DNA of 64,000 nucleotides from Kiritimatiellaeota bacterium B1221 (GTDB lineage Bacteria; Verrucomicrobiota; Kiritimatiellia; SS1-B-03-39; UBA6053): positions 186,001-250,000 of the forward strand of contig JARHXX010000001.1 of the NCBI GenBank assembly GCA_029269125.1, written 5' to 3'. The notes under the pieces are model-generated. The model searched no databases. It saw only the letters and a list, made by a program, of their open reading frames with translations, and had not been told where the DNA came from. The translations under genes and the position numbers were made by a program. This document shows, piece after piece, positions 3,501 through 7,831 of this stretch (its first letter is position 1; every line of letters starts with the position of its first letter).

Positions 3501-4108
3501 GGAAAACTGAAGACCACCGTTCCCACCACACGGCCACTGATGGTCACCGGATAGCTGGAGCGAAAGCCATTGAAAGGATTTCCAATCGAAAACCACGACT
3601 GTGCCTCCGTGTGGTTGGAGCTTTCAATCGGAGGAAAAGGATTCTCCTCATTTCCCACCAGCAATAGCGGTTCCCCCTCCGGACCATAATAAGCGACCTG
3701 AGACAGCCCCTGCGGCTGCACCCGCTCAAACACAGCCTGCGATGCCTCTTTCAACTCATGAAGGGTGAGATCCCGGTTTTCCCCCGCTTCCATGTATTGA
3801 ATGCGGTCCAACAGCACCGCGGCCGGCAAATGCGCCATCAAGTCTTCAAACATCATATTCGAGACATGTTCAAAATGTACCTGCGCCGACGCAAATTCCT
3901 GCTCATAGCCCGCCATCCGCCGCTCCAGCAGAAAATCAATCTCTTCCTTCCGGTCATTCCCCAAAATCAGCACCAAAACCCAGGAAAGTAATAAATAAAG
4001 AAGTGCAAAGGCGATCGACAGGGAAAAGAAATCCACTTTCCCTTTCACATCGTTCCGCGTTAAAGATTTTCTGGGTCGTTTCTGCATCATAATGAATAAC
4101 CGCACCAT
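569..4108 (-). CDS. Hybrid sensor histidine kinase with two receivers and Hpt
   Basis: This 1179-residue membrane sensor kinase carries a full internal phosphorelay. Two transmembrane segments (about residues 30-50 and 345-365) flank a large periplasmic sensor region. A PAS-like domain follows (about 375-490), then HisKA with [10 protein letters not shown] (phospho-His near 543). The HATPase domain has DTGIGIP and a GGTGLGLAI box (near 729). The first receiver has Asp in [10 protein letters not shown] (near 834), the second has Asp in [11 protein letters not shown] (near 973), and the C-terminal Hpt domain has TAHRLRG (His near 1119). The second receiver is closer to the classic sequence. Start alternatives exist at the internal MM seven residues in. 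No dedicated DNA-binding response regulator is adjacent, so the output target is unknown. Confidence 0.92.
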
Positions 4109-4257
4109 GCAATAGTTTTCATAGGAATGGAAAGCGAAAAGTTACTTGTAATAAAGGAGGTTTCTATCCCTTCTCTTCATTTTGATCTCCGTGGGCAATA
4201 TGCCTCCAGTCCTACTTAGACTTGACGCATCCGCCCATTTTCAAGTAAGGCACTGAC

Positions 4258-5319
4258 ATGTCCAATACCCTACCCGGCATCCCTCTCGCGGGCGATCAAC
4301 AAGACGCTCAAAATTTATGGAACCTCCTGCAGTCAATGCCGGTGGATGAAGACTGCACCGATCAGGCCCCCGAGCCCATTCGGAAACGGCGCACCACTAT
4401 TGCCAGCCCGGTATCCGTTCAAGGTCCCGGCACCTTTTTCGGAAAAGAGACCCGCACCATCGAATTTTTGCCCACCGAACGTGAAGGTTGGTGGTTTGAC
4501 CGCGGGGATCATCCGGACTGGCTGCGCATCCAGGTCGCCATCCAAAACGTCTGGACCACCGGGCAGGTTGTCAGCAATATCGTGTTGCGCAGCGGTCAGC
4601 CCCATAACTACGTCCGTTTGGTGGAACACATTATCGCCTTGCGTATGGGCATGGGCATCGACGACCTCACCATCAAAATCGACTCTGGAGATCCACCGCT
4701 TTTCGATGTGGGAAGCATGCCCCTGGTGGAAGCACTCGAATCTGTCGGCACCGTGGACTCGGCTTTTCCTTTGGAATATGTCACCGTTAAAGAACCCGTC
4801 CACTTCTCCACCCCCGAAGGCAAACTGCTGGTTTTCGAACCCGCGGACCCCAACGATCCCAAATTAGAACTGGATTGCGGTATTTCATTTCCCAATGTCA
4901 TCGGGGAACAGCGTATCAAATTGGTGGTCAACCGCGATACCTTCCGCCGGGGCGCCCATGCCCGCACCAATACCACCGCGCAGAAAAAACTGTACTGCCA
5001 AAGCATCGGAAAACTTTTCGCCGACGTGCGGAACCTGGGCTATACCGATAAAAATGTACTGATCGCCGGCACCAAAAAATACCACAACGAACCCGAACCC
5101 AGCCTCTGGGTAAATAACAAATCCCTGGAAGCCGTCTGGCACCGGGCCATCCTCGACCTGCTGGCGGCCATCGCGCTTATCGAAAGCGGAAATTTCATTG
5201 GCAAAGTATCCTCCTATAAAGCCGGACACGCCATGGACGTACAAGCGGTAAAAGCCCTGTACCGAAATGACCTTTTAACCAAAGTCGAAATGCCCGGCGA
5301 TGAGCCCCTGGCAGAATAA
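4258..5319 (+). CDS. lpxC: LpxC-family UDP-3-O-acyl-GlcNAc deacetylase-like protein
   Basis: LpxC is the zinc deacetylase that commits UDP-3-O-acyl-N-acetylglucosamine to lipid A synthesis. This 353-residue protein shows both LpxC halves: GPGTFFGKETRTIEF at the N-terminus, then VEHIIALRMGMGIDDL (Glu/His equivalent to E78/H79 of E. coli). The C-terminus has HRAILDLLAAIAL and SSYKAGHAMD, the latter matching the general-acid His of the GH loop. The zinc motif is unusual: E. coli has H-x3-D, here it is H-x4-D, and the following Asp of the IGD element is missing. It may therefore be a divergent enzyme or a paralogue. AAGG seven bases upstream supports the start. trmL follows with no gap. Confidence 0.7.
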   Translation: MSNTLPGIPLAGDQQDAQNLWNLLQSMPVDEDCTDQAPEPIRKRRTTIASPVSVQGPGTFFGKETRTIEFLPTEREGWWFDRGDHPDWLRIQVAIQNVWTTGQVVSNIVLRSGQPHNYVRLVEHIIALRMGMGIDDLTIKIDSGDPPLFDVGSMPLVEALESVGTVDSAFPLEYVTVKEPVHFSTPEGKLLVFEPADPNDPKLELDCGISFPNVIGEQRIKLVVNRDTFRRGAHARTNTTAQKKLYCQSIGKLFADVRNLGYTDKNVLIAGTKKYHNEPEPSLWVNNKSLEAVWHRAILDLLAAIALIESGNFIGKVSSYKAGHAMDVQAVKALYRNDLLTKVEMPGDEPLAE

Positions 5320-5790
5320 ATGAACCGTTCATGGCCCGACCCTCCCCTGCAAGTGGTATTGATGGAGCCGGAGATTCCCCCTAACACCGGAAATATCTCC
5401 CGGAGTTGCGCCGCCACCGGCAGCCGTCTGCATTTGATCCATCCCTTGGGCTTCGATCTTTCCGAAAAAGCCGTACGCCGCGCCGGACTCGACTATTGGC
5501 CCCACGTGGATTTACACGAACACGATTCACTGGAAACCTGTTTAAAACAGCCTCACCGAAAAGTTTGGTACCTCAGCACCAAAGCCACCCGGAACTATAC
5601 CGATGCCGACTTTGGCCCCGGTGACATGCTGGTTTTCGGCCCCGAAACCCGTGGTCTCCCCGAAGATGTGCTTGAAGCTGCCGGTGCCCAGGCCCTCACC
5701 ATCCCCATGCAGACCCACGCCGTCCGCTCCCTCAACCTCGCCACCTCCGTGGGCATCGTGCTCTTTGAAGCCCTGAGACAAGTAATGTAG
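5320..5790 (+). CDS. trmL: tRNA (cytidine/uridine-34 2'-O)-methyltransferase TrmL
   Basis: This 156-residue SPOUT methyltransferase is predicted to methylate the ribose of the wobble base (position 34) in leucine tRNAs, using SAM. Family features visible are the N-terminal EPEIPPNTGNISRSCA motif, the HPLGF segment with RAGLDYW, the FGPETRGLP SAM-binding loop, and the C-terminal knot sequence SLNLATSVGIVLFEA. Length is normal. The ATG directly follows the TAA of the LpxC-like gene, so translation is coupled. Its stop codon (ATG TAG) lies inside a hairpin repeat copy at 5785-5828, so the last residues (Val-Met) are adjacent to or within the repeat. Confidence 0.93.
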   Translation: MNRSWPDPPLQVVLMEPEIPPNTGNISRSCAATGSRLHLIHPLGFDLSEKAVRRAGLDYWPHVDLHEHDSLETCLKQPHRKVWYLSTKATRNYTDADFGPGDMLVFGPETRGLPEDVLEAAGAQALTIPMQTHAVRSLNLATSVGIVLFEALRQVM

Positions 5791-5828
5791 GCATTCCTGC
5801 CTGCAGGGCTCCAGACATTTTTGTCTGT
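5785..5828 (+). repeat. Double-hairpin repeat, copy A
   Basis: This copy contains two short stem-loops in tandem: AGGC/GCCT with a six-base loop, then CAGACA/TGTCTG around a T-rich loop. It begins ATGTAGGC, and the TAG is the stop of trmL. Copy C at 7194-7237 has the same layout on the opposite strand, with compensating changes in the second stem (CAGGC/GCCTG). It may act as a terminator or mRNA 3'-end stabiliser. Confidence 0.6.
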
Positions 5829-6438
5829 ATCTATTCCGCTGTATTTCAAACGCTGATTCCAAATATACAGGACATTCCCTATTATTTAATCAGTGAAAAA
5901 ACGGAAACCCATAAATATTGAGGTATGGCCTTTTTATAAGTGTAGGCCTGGTCCGAAAAACCAATTACTGCGCTTGCGCGGTATGCGGAGTACCTGGTTC
6001 TAGAAGTATGACGTTCAGACGACCCCCGCGCCCTCCGCCCACCGGGCAAACCCAGTGCCTGGGGAGAAAATCGGAAAGATCCTGCCAAAATTTCACATTG
6101 ACCAACCAGACCAATTATGGCCCAATAGATCATTATGATCGTTAACCTGTCAGAAGCGAAAGCACAGTTATCCCAGGGAATCGATTAGGTTCCCCATACA
6201 CCCAAAGGAAATCGCAAGCTTGGACGGTTAAAAGGTCAATTCACGGCCCCCGATAATTTTTGGGAAGACAGTGATAAAATCAATGACATGTTTTATGGTG
6301 AACATTCGTGAAGATATGAATCGATACGCATATTTTTCTCTGGGCCTTGTCCGAACCGGAAAAAATTCCGCAAAACCACCAACCTAACGTAGACATTCCT
6401 GCCTGTGGCAGGTTCATATATCATGTCTGCAAAAACAA
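5791..6438. other. Gene-poor intergenic stretch
   Basis: I see no convincing gene in these 650 bases. Short frames exist on both strands, but none has a recognisable protein, a Shine-Dalgarno sequence or normal composition. The stretch carries hairpin repeat copy A at its left end and copy B at its right end. No tRNA or known RNA family was recognised. Confidence 0.5.
6389..6429 (+). repeat. Double-hairpin repeat, copy B (divergent)
   Basis: This shares GTAGACATTCCTGCCTG with copy A, allowing one mismatch (copy A has GTAGGC). It then has its own CCTG/CAGG stem and ends in CATGTCTG. It lies just upstream of the start at 6439 and leaves no clear Shine-Dalgarno sequence there. Confidence 0.45.
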
Positions 6439-7185
6439 ATGATCCGCCTCTTTCTTCCTCTCGCTTTTTTCGCCCTCTACCTTCCTGCCGACCAAGGGCT
6501 GTTACCTCTGCAAATGTCCGGGATCGTGTACTCCCCTCTGCATACCTACTATGCGGTAGCAACCCACCATCCTACCGATGGCGTATATAAAAGCCAGCAA
6601 GGGAGCAGGCTCCAGATCTTCAATACCAAATCAGGGAAATCGGTTTGGAGCACCGACTTTCTTGGTTTGGTAAACAATCTAACTTTGGCCGATGACGGGG
6701 AACACATTGTGGTGGTCCAAAAAGGAATTCTACGAAATTTCTATGGCGATGAACTGACAAAAGAAACGACCAAAGCATTTCTGGAAACCACCGTACTTTC
6801 TTTTTATAAACGGGAGAAGTTAATTAAATCCTACACAGTTGAAGAACTAGGGTTGAGTGCGAAAGATCTTTTAAACTCATCTGGTCAGATCCAAATATTC
6901 CCCTATTCTAATCAGCACATCTATTTCGGAGATAGCGTAGAGGATGCCCGTCTAAAAAACTTCCCCATTCTTATGGGTCATTTTATGTTTTTGGTGTTCT
7001 CAAATGGAAACAATGCCTTTTTTGATATCCGTAGCGGAGAAAAGCTAAAAAAAATCCCCAAAGAATTTCAAATTTTCGACTGGGATGCTCACAATGCTAC
7101 TCCTACCCCAAAACCCGAAGAGATTATCCCGGAATCTGAAGATCAGAATACCGTAAAGGATCCCTTTGGTTTTGGTGCACCATAA
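6439..7185 (+). CDS. Secreted protein of unknown function
   Basis: I do not recognise this 248-residue protein. It starts with a Sec-type signal (IRLFLPLAFFALYLPA), which predicts export to the periplasm or beyond. The middle has strand-rich segments such as LQIFNTKSGKSVWSTDFLG and TLADDGEHIVVV, reminiscent of single beta-propeller blades (WD40/PQQ-like). At under 250 residues it is too short for a full propeller. The C-terminus is acidic and proline-rich. No good Shine-Dalgarno precedes the ATG. It stands alone between repeats, with recR convergent downstream. Confidence 0.6.
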   Translation: MIRLFLPLAFFALYLPADQGLLPLQMSGIVYSPLHTYYAVATHHPTDGVYKSQQGSRLQIFNTKSGKSVWSTDFLGLVNNLTLADDGEHIVVVQKGILRNFYGDELTKETTKAFLETTVLSFYKREKLIKSYTVEELGLSAKDLLNSSGQIQIFPYSNQHIYFGDSVEDARLKNFPILMGHFMFLVFSNGNNAFFDIRSGEKLKKIPKEFQIFDWDAHNATPTPKPEEIIPESEDQNTVKDPFGFGAP

Positions 7186-7193
7186 ACTGAAAG

Positions 7194-7237
7194 ACAGGCA
7201 GGAACGCCTGAAACCCTGCAGGCTCGAAAGCCTACAT
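7194..7237 (-). repeat. Double-hairpin repeat, copy C
   Basis: Read on the minus strand this starts ATGTAGGC, with TAG being the stop codon of recR, exactly as copy A provides the stop of trmL. The first hairpin is AGGC/GCCT and the second is CAGGC/GCCTG. Relative to copy A the loops and second stem differ, but pairing is kept. Confidence 0.6.
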
Positions 7238-7831
7238 GACTTCCTGCCGCCCTTTCATTGCCCGTTTAAGGGTTTCGGGATCGCTGTATGCCAGACCACT
7301 GCCCGCCGGCAGACCAAAGGCCAGGCGCGTCACCTTGATACCCAGCGGTTTCAACACATCCCCCAGCAGACTCGCGGTCGCATCACTTTCCACGTCGGTA
7401 TTGAGCCCCAGCATCACCTCTTCCACCCCGTCAGCCTCAATTCGGAGCAAAAGTTTTTCAATCAATTCCCGGGTCACCGTTTCATCCTGCATCGGCGATA
7501 TTTTTCCGCGCAGACAATAATACTTGCCGGGAAAACTGCCCGCTTGTTCAATCACTTGGATATCCGGGGCCCCCTCCACCACACACAGCACTTTGGATGT
7601 GCGTTTCGGATTGCGGCAAATCAGACAGGGATCACGATCCACCGCCGTCAGATTTCCGCAACGGCTGCACAACACAATTTCATTGCCGGCCCGTTCCAGA
7701 GAGACAATCAATTCTTTCAACAAATCCTGATTCCGCAGCAGCAGACGATAGGCCATCCGCTCCGCGGTTCGGCGGCCAATCCCGGGCAAACGGGAAAGGC
7801 TGCGTATCAGTTGTTGCAAAGCTTCAGGCAT
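7232..7831 (-). CDS. recR: Recombination mediator protein RecR
   Basis: RecR works with RecO (and RecF) to load RecA on SSB-coated single-stranded DNA during gap repair. The 199-residue protein shows the helix-hairpin-helix LPGIGRRTAERMA (about residues 15-27). A C4 zinc finger follows (CSRCGN and CLICRN), then the Toprim domain starting VLCVVEGAPDI and the conserved GLNTDVESDATA and RLAFGLPAGSGLAYSD segments. Length is normal. The gene follows ybaB by one base in the classic dnaX-ybaB-recR order. Its stop codon lies inside hairpin repeat copy C. Confidence 0.97.
   Translation of the reverse strand: MPEALQQLIRSLSRLPGIGRRTAERMAYRLLLRNQDLLKELIVSLERAGNEIVLCSRCGNLTAVDRDPCLICRNPKRTSKVLCVVEGAPDIQVIEQAGSFPGKYYCLRGKISPMQDETVTRELIEKLLLRIEADGVEEVMLGLNTDVESDATASLLGDVLKPLGIKVTRLAFGLPAGSGLAYSDPETLKRAMKGRQEVM

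Follow-up and report, generated by a model that had tools for sequence, protein, structure and literature searches.

Tandem-hairpin repeats with a stop-codon tag in a Kiritimatiellota genus resemble RAYT-associated REP elements

Introduction

To our knowledge, why REP sequences cluster at the ends of genes, whether through targeting, survival or function, is an open question. In the excerpts of the papers cited here, to which all our statements about them refer, REPs of the GTAG class lie mostly downstream of coding regions, and their ends often provide a TAG stop codon to flanking ORFs (PMC3733652). In many instances the REPs that flank rayt genes lie directly behind the rayt stop codon or very near it (PMC2817692), and in E. 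coli 446 of 4,072 REPs lie within 15 nt of a stop codon (PMC12306157); the latter paper also cites a report that E. coli REPs no more than 15 nt from a stop stall ribosomes. The RAYTs of other systems recognise single-stranded REP, and a REP tetranucleotide has been proposed to guide the choice of cleavage site, with experimental support in one system (PMC8266576).

Here we describe a repeat family from a genus of Kiritimatiellota, starting from a window of 64,000 nucleotides of Kiritimatiellaeota bacterium B1221 (contig JARHXX010000001.1, positions 186,001 to 250,000), in which it is represented by copies A and C. As in the available descriptions of RAYT-associated REPs and REPINs (PMC2817692, PMC8266576), the units are short palindromes present in tens of copies, they occur singly and as inverted pairs, and they border Y1 transposase genes. 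Unlike the plain GTAG of those elements, the tag here is GTAAC-N-YAG or GTGAC-AYAG; the main unit consists of two tandem hairpins and about half of the copies supply a stop codon. Stop donation, a downstream location, alternative complementary stem residues and dimers, which in Opitutus terrae have 1-2 bp spacers, are shared with the GTAG REP superfamily of Di Nocera et al. (2013), which includes that member of the Verrucomicrobia (PMC3733652, as excerpted). As with the E. coli REPs near stops described in the accessible part of PMC12306157, the hairpin follows the stop codon immediately, and an effect on translation or mRNA decay is plausible. Integron attC sites were considered on account of the AAC/GTT ends and set aside by reasoning only.

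Results

Copy A (5782-5830, + strand) begins GTA ATG TAG GC (5782-5792) and consists of the tag GTAAT-GTAG (5782-5790), a first hairpin (5787-5804), a linker and a second hairpin (5812-5827). The TAG at 5788-5790 is the stop codon of trmL (ORF 5320-5790, +), the product of which scored 179.2 bits against TIGR00185 (cut-off 190.6) and matched Pfam SpoU_methylase above the cut-off. Copy C (7192-7240, - strand) begins GTC ATG TAG GC (7240-7230), with the tag GTCAT-GTAG (7240-7232), a first hairpin at about 7218-7235, a linker and a second hairpin (7195-7210); its TAG (7232-7234) terminates recR (ORF 7232-7831, -; TIGR00615, 190.4 bits, above the cut-off). Both genes end Val-Met-stop, each TAG lying within its repeat, and a sequence-only reading of the window that had described two double hairpins starting ATG TAG GC and ending genes on opposite strands was borne out by sequence, ORFs and folds alike. 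Folded as single-stranded DNA, each copy forms two hairpins (fold z -4.9 for copy A and -4.7 for copy C), and none of 200 shuffles was equally stable; over 49 nt the arms of the two copies share 78% complementarity. Against the family model described below, they score 51.9 and 53.8 bits, respectively. Inspection of the sequence 3' of copies A and C revealed no T run of the kind that marks a Rho-independent terminator, and the Rfam 15 covariance models gave no match at E ≤1 between positions 5000 and 8000 of the window.

The third copy that the same reading had placed near 6389 is there in part. Its tag and first arm (6384-6416, +; direct repeat D1, 90% over 21 nt) are all that copy B has in common with A and C, and it is a weak remnant (10.3 bits, E 5e-4) that folds differently and feebly (z -2.1; 10 of 200 shuffles equally stable) and terminates no same-strand ORF of at least 60 aa. 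Copy B is probably a decayed copy. A 17-nt core searched with up to 3 mismatches had 4 matches in the window against 0.30 expected, two of the four being the hairpins of copy C. Between the trmL and recR repeats lies an ORF of 248 aa (6439-7185, +) with only sub-threshold BamB/WD40-like matches; in the closest relative (locus L207) the two repeats are about 225 bp apart, an interval that differs from that of the window by about 1.1 kb.

We built a covariance model from 15 copies. Scoring was confined to 150 of 2,682 first-look candidates in the window's own genome, so copies there may have been missed; at least 61 matches were obtained at E ≤10, of which the 41 with at least 13 bits were kept, and 21 reached at least 40 bits with the full two-hairpin model. 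The search for further copies that the earlier reading had called for thus uncovered a genome-wide family. Simpler probes were uninformative: the pattern GTAGRCNTNCCTGYCTG matched only copies A and B, and a single-hairpin pattern was too loose (47 matches against 36 in the control), as was a 21-nt pattern with 3 mismatches (18 across the whole genome against 12 for the reversed control). Only the two-hairpin model separated the family from background.

Relatives came from one protein search and comprised a CAKZLZ metagenome-assembled genome (G001; recR 93%), Kiritimatiellota bacterium B12222 (recR 85%; complete), UBA6053 (G005) and M50B83 (G007). The window's genome (G000) is a draft of 144 contigs estimated at 94.6% complete, and ORFs were called mechanically. 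At the cut-offs used, strong copies were found in three of the five members of the genus: 41 in G000, 47 in G001 and 31 in B12222. These make up 119 listed matches, of which 118 were examined (G001 C179:11128 was left out). At E ≤1e-4, UBA6053 had 3 matches (best 15.4 bits) and M50B83 had 10 (best 24.6 bits), and 30 of 39 genomes had at least one match to the model, mostly weak; the best match outside the genus (30.5 bits) was in G013, a genome of the same family. It could be argued that short GC hairpins near two genes are alike by accident or through faulty assembly, given stems of 5-8 bp, the poor state of copy B and a 21-nt pattern barely above its control. The 21 own-genome matches of at least 40 bits, the orthologous copies in two other assemblies, one of them a complete chromosome, and the histogram of stop offsets presented below make such a coincidence scarcely credible.

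The consensus, GTAAC-N-YAGRC-loop-GYCTG-linker-YAGRC-loop-GYCTG, comprises a 5' tag, GTAAC-N-YAG, and two covarying hairpins. Of the 76 copies that score 28 bits or more, 55 have an exact GTAAC, 31 have GYAG and just 12 have a strict GTAG in the corresponding position; the stop is mostly TAA. As most copies lack the strict GTAG, we do not file the family in the GTAG REP superfamily, although it works like it. Across 73 aligned copies, pairing is kept in 96.5% of cells, and doubly changed cells number 43, compared with 8.6 in shuffles, in an alignment that was itself fitted to the structure. Two of five covariation measures were no higher than in shuffles: the number of pairs with a double change was equalled in 98 of 500 shuffles and that of further pair types in 248 of 500. 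The suggestion that the stems change while pairing is retained therefore holds for a dispersed set of copies, and what emerges is a repeated extragenic palindrome with compensatory stem changes. One double-hairpin copy in G001 (L217:1481-1561) carries some 33 extra, partly palindromic bases in the loop of hairpin 1 and keeps the outer stem. A different repeat, CTACGCCAAAGGCGTT-N2-GCCTG, occurs in L063 and L072 of G000, in L072 close to a further Y1_Tnp gene, situated at the end of contig C133; it may form a REP family of its own in the window's genome.

Copies also meet on opposite strands. Twenty such neighbours lie within 130 bp of each other, 11 of them spaced 2-7 bp apart, and a few weak matches overlap their partner; wherever both genes were visible, the inverted pairs sit between convergent genes. 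Copy identities are 0.70-0.74 within genomes, 0.68-0.71 between genomes and 0.44-0.88 for 10 orthologous pairs. Linkers that looked species-specific had raised the suspicion of concerted evolution at orthologous sites, which was not clearly supported.

Several of these observations bear on the idea that the units are not mobile at all and are instead hairpins at 3' ends, acting as terminators or exonuclease shields, that evolved with their genes while the stop context became GTAAC. Stem pairing is preserved, orthologous positions, C50, C67, C122, trmL and recR among them, are occupied in two or three species by copies whose stems differ, and 7 of the 10 orthologous pairs, at more than 0.71, exceed the mean between-genome pair. 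A structure tied to its gene fits poorly, however, with copies present at one gene and missing at its orthologue, with the occurrence of inverted pairs, with mere tens of copies per genome of several Mb, and with the lack of a T run after A or C. The RAYT-like genes bordered by the same repeats, and a near-identical single-hairpin set in G001 with 32 exact pattern matches, both described below, also count against it, and we regard the idea as improbable.

We scored the position of each stop codon relative to the first base of the tag, using same-strand ORFs of at least 100 aa, for the 118 matches in the three genomes. In 61 matches the repeat supplies the stop, 48 times at offset 1, with G-TAA-C giving TAA or GTAGC giving TAG, and 13 times at offset 6 (the TAG of NTAG), counts that still include the three ORFs judged spurious below where these reach 100 aa; the other 57 supply no such stop. 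These two offsets account for 61 of the 85 stops within 60 nt, and any other offset occurs at most three times; of 49 opposite-strand stops within 60 nt, no more than 7 share one offset. The stop-supplying share is 22 of 41 in G000, 31 of 46 in G001 and 8 of 31 in B12222 and, for matches of at least 40 bits, 11 of 21, 23 of 26 and 5 of 16, respectively. TAG had been taken as the donated stop; the usual one is in fact the TAA of GTAAC, the TAG frame being a minority of 13 in 61.

Controls were low. GTAAC outside the elements at the same loci formed such a stop in 10 of 206 cases, after masking of elements and de-duplication of loci (48 of 368 before masking, a figure inflated by neighbouring elements and overlapping loci), and, of 171 stops that end ORFs of 150 aa or more outside elements, 6 fell in GTAAC. 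In five 50-kb stretches of E. coli K-12 (250 kb), the TAG of REP heads was such a stop in only 1 of 44. The present family supplies stops far more often than the E. coli REPs compared.

We next compared orthologues with and without the element, starting from 45 gene families. Three were dropped as spurious ORFs (G000 C89:38006, G001 C139:16024 and G001 C139:15931), and in 36 of the remaining 42 there was an element-free orthologue with at least 60% identity; the element-free list was curated by hand, with visible remnants counted as elements. For genes with the stop at offset 1, the closest element-free orthologue stops at the same codon in 19 of 29 families and is 1 to 8 codons longer in the other 10; over all 56 element-free orthologues, 33 stop at the same codon, 21 are longer and 2 are shorter. 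In most copies, therefore, the element appears to have landed on or replaced an existing stop position. The last amino acid can be kept while the wobble base and stop become those of the tag, as in ACC TGA (B12222) versus ACG TAA C (G001), CTC TAA versus CTG TAA C, and AAA TGA (G000) versus AAG TAA C (G001).

At offset 6 the tag encodes residues. All 13 such genes end Val-X-TAG (9 VT, 2 VM, 1 VN and 1 VI, the last a doubtful ORF), with the Val-X residues tag-encoded, whereas element-free relatives end otherwise: RLM-VT contrasts with RLM-WM and RLM-LS, LLR-VT with LLQ-KT, and LK-VT with LK-IK and LK-KS. For seven offset-6 families with an element-free orthologue, the stop of the closest one precedes that of the tag by one codon in 1, coincides with it in 3 and follows it by 2 to 4 codons in 3. 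Element-free recR ends GTT-TGA in B12222 and GTT-TAA in M50B83, with the valine followed by a stop one codon earlier; element-free trmL ends CCG-TAG in B12222, GCG-TAG in UBA6053 and AGT-TGA in M50B83, so TAG alone is not special to the repeat. Neither gene, then, ends ATG-TAG in the element-free relatives seen, and none of these has the ATG-TAG ends without hairpins that would have undone the earlier reading. In the closest relative trmL ends GTA-ACG-TAG within a copy of its own, and B12222 trmL ends three codons later (...RVTP-TAG), an end that might hold a relic of the element. The supply of stops at gene ends is thus upheld; at offset 6 the Val-X-TAG termini are encoded by the tag, and in 19 of 29 offset-1 families the element seems to occupy a stop position that was there before.

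Clean empty sites were not seen among the listed 3' UTR alignments of 18 genes with and without the element. Even in the closest pair of genomes these regions mostly do not align, so exact insertion points and target duplications cannot be read from them. The best near-empty case is a G001 gene at C22:20348, presumably hisH, which relative to G000 has an extra second single-hairpin unit including GTAAC.

A rival reading is homing, in which a RAYT guided by the tag would pick tag-like targets (G-TRA-C) and insert REPINs on gene ends. The variation of the tag between GTAAC and GTGAC, that is, G followed by TAA or TGA and then C, is what such guidance would predict, and the excess of offset 1 over offset 6, the same-codon stops in element-free orthologues and the cleavage-guiding role proposed for the REP tetranucleotide in the excerpt of PMC8266576 point the same way. 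Yet of the 29 closest element-free orthologues, no more than 9 have GTAA at the stop; as far as available relatives tell, the tag sequence was mostly absent beforehand, and the target match would have to be loose or the site overwritten. In G000 the copy at the orthologue of C134 lies one base past an intact stop, from which it follows that the tag travels with the element, and intergenic TAAs should be targets too. We consider homing unlikely overall, though a serious contender. If it does operate, the tag would provide the wobble base and a new stop, the protein would be preserved and the element could spread through important genes at little cost, with its hairpin placed against terminating ribosomes.

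RAYT-like genes adjoin the repeats in two relatives. RAYT-A of G001 (L204:1689-2261) encodes a 191-aa protein (Pfam Y1_Tnp, 39.6 bits; cut-off 23) whose sole PDB match at E ≤0.01 is E. coli TnpAREP (4er8). The gene, next to what we take to be leuS, has an element on each side, the upstream copy oriented the same as the downstream one, and its stop is the TAA of the tag downstream. The corresponding position in B12222 is occupied by a gene of 68% identity that ends likewise; an in-frame TAG interrupts it, and inverted pairs, partly weak, border it on both sides. RAYT-B of G001 (L250:1489-2070), 54% identical to RAYT-A, is bordered on both sides by whole inverted REPINs with the tag GTGAC, in which its own TGA lies. 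REP_Tyr_transpos is the best NCBIfam family for both proteins, below its cut-off of 80 (73.4 for RAYT-A and 58.0 for RAYT-B). At all three loci, a Y1 (IS200-like) transposase gene is bordered by the repeat.

The REPINs on either side of RAYT-B (L250:1350-2250, on G001 C179) are about 100 bp long and closely alike. Their hairpin pattern, searched without the GTRA of the tag and with the final C kept, had 47 matches in G001; among the 30 retrieved, GTRAC is present in 28 and a stop is provided by 12, several of these matches being also among the 118. The RAYT-B REPINs are possibly the source of the single-hairpin set of G001.

In all, 37 RAYT-like matches were found in 19 of the 39 genomes. We inspected the ends of 30, reaching the stop in 27, and three of these 27 end in such a tag and hairpin: RAYT-A, RAYT-B and the B12222 gene. 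In G029 (L256), a distant RAYT-like gene ends ATAAC, a TAA and then C, before another GC-rich hairpin, which may be a similar arrangement in a different repeat family. The genome of the window, 94.6% complete, yielded no cognate RAYT: its best match is 39% identical to RAYT-A and not so flanked. The genes flanking the B12222 RAYT locus are adjacent there (L062), with a single element and no RAYT; the enzyme has either been lost or lies in an assembly gap. The B12222 locus itself (L181:2261-5339) holds three inverted element pairs within 3 kb and, between them, a 296-aa ORF, the interrupted RAYT and a gene at 3551-4486 that by eye looks like an IS110 transposase.

Discussion

Copies A and C are, in our judgement, probably members of a RAYT-associated REP/REPIN family with a stop-codon tag in this Kiritimatiellota genus. 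The family, its structure, its overlap with stop codons, its association with RAYTs in a relative and the altered C-termini were observed directly, and the mechanism set out next is built on them. Each unit joins the 5' tag GTAAC-N-YAG to two short hairpins and is found singly or, between convergent genes, as part of an inverted pair. A RAYT, a single-strand HUH/tyrosine transposase, probably recognises hairpin and tag and spreads the units, judging from the RAYT-like genes in the relative; that these enzymes act as do those of the systems in PMC8266576, of which parts were available, is an inference.

The tag carries a stop codon in each of two frames, offset 1 being the TAA of G-TAA-C and offset 6 the TAG, so a unit landing on a gene end would close the frame at once. 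At offset 1 the leading G of the tag would take the wobble position of the last codon, and protein length would for this reason usually be unchanged; at offset 6, of which trmL and recR are examples, the tag encodes Val-Thr/Met-stop. Insertion at a gene end should be nearly harmless, given these two stop frames and a first base that suits the wobble position. Such harmlessness would account for the survival of copies, though not for their large excess on the stop over positions just behind it. Copies may accumulate on stops by targeted insertion, by survival of harmless insertions or through a benefit of hairpins adjacent to stops of the kind reported for E. coli REPs; the excess itself would call for the first or the last of these.

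The sequence-only reading had envisaged a distinct kind of mobile or selected element. This is too strong, since stop donation by GTAG REPs is in print (PMC3733652, in the excerpt) and the family resembles RAYT-associated REPs and REPINs. Stop donation by REPs is known; for the family itself, its GTRAC-type two-frame stop tag, its tandem hairpins and the measured precision, we found no description in openly licensed PubMed Central papers.

The tag itself encodes a stop, many copies coincide exactly with the stop codon, and two RAYT-like genes of one relative adjoin such repeats, so targeting is directly testable in vitro. For the genus, the repeats would represent a near-harmless route by which mobile DNA reaches gene ends, those of recR and trmL among them, as well as those of the RAYT-like genes.
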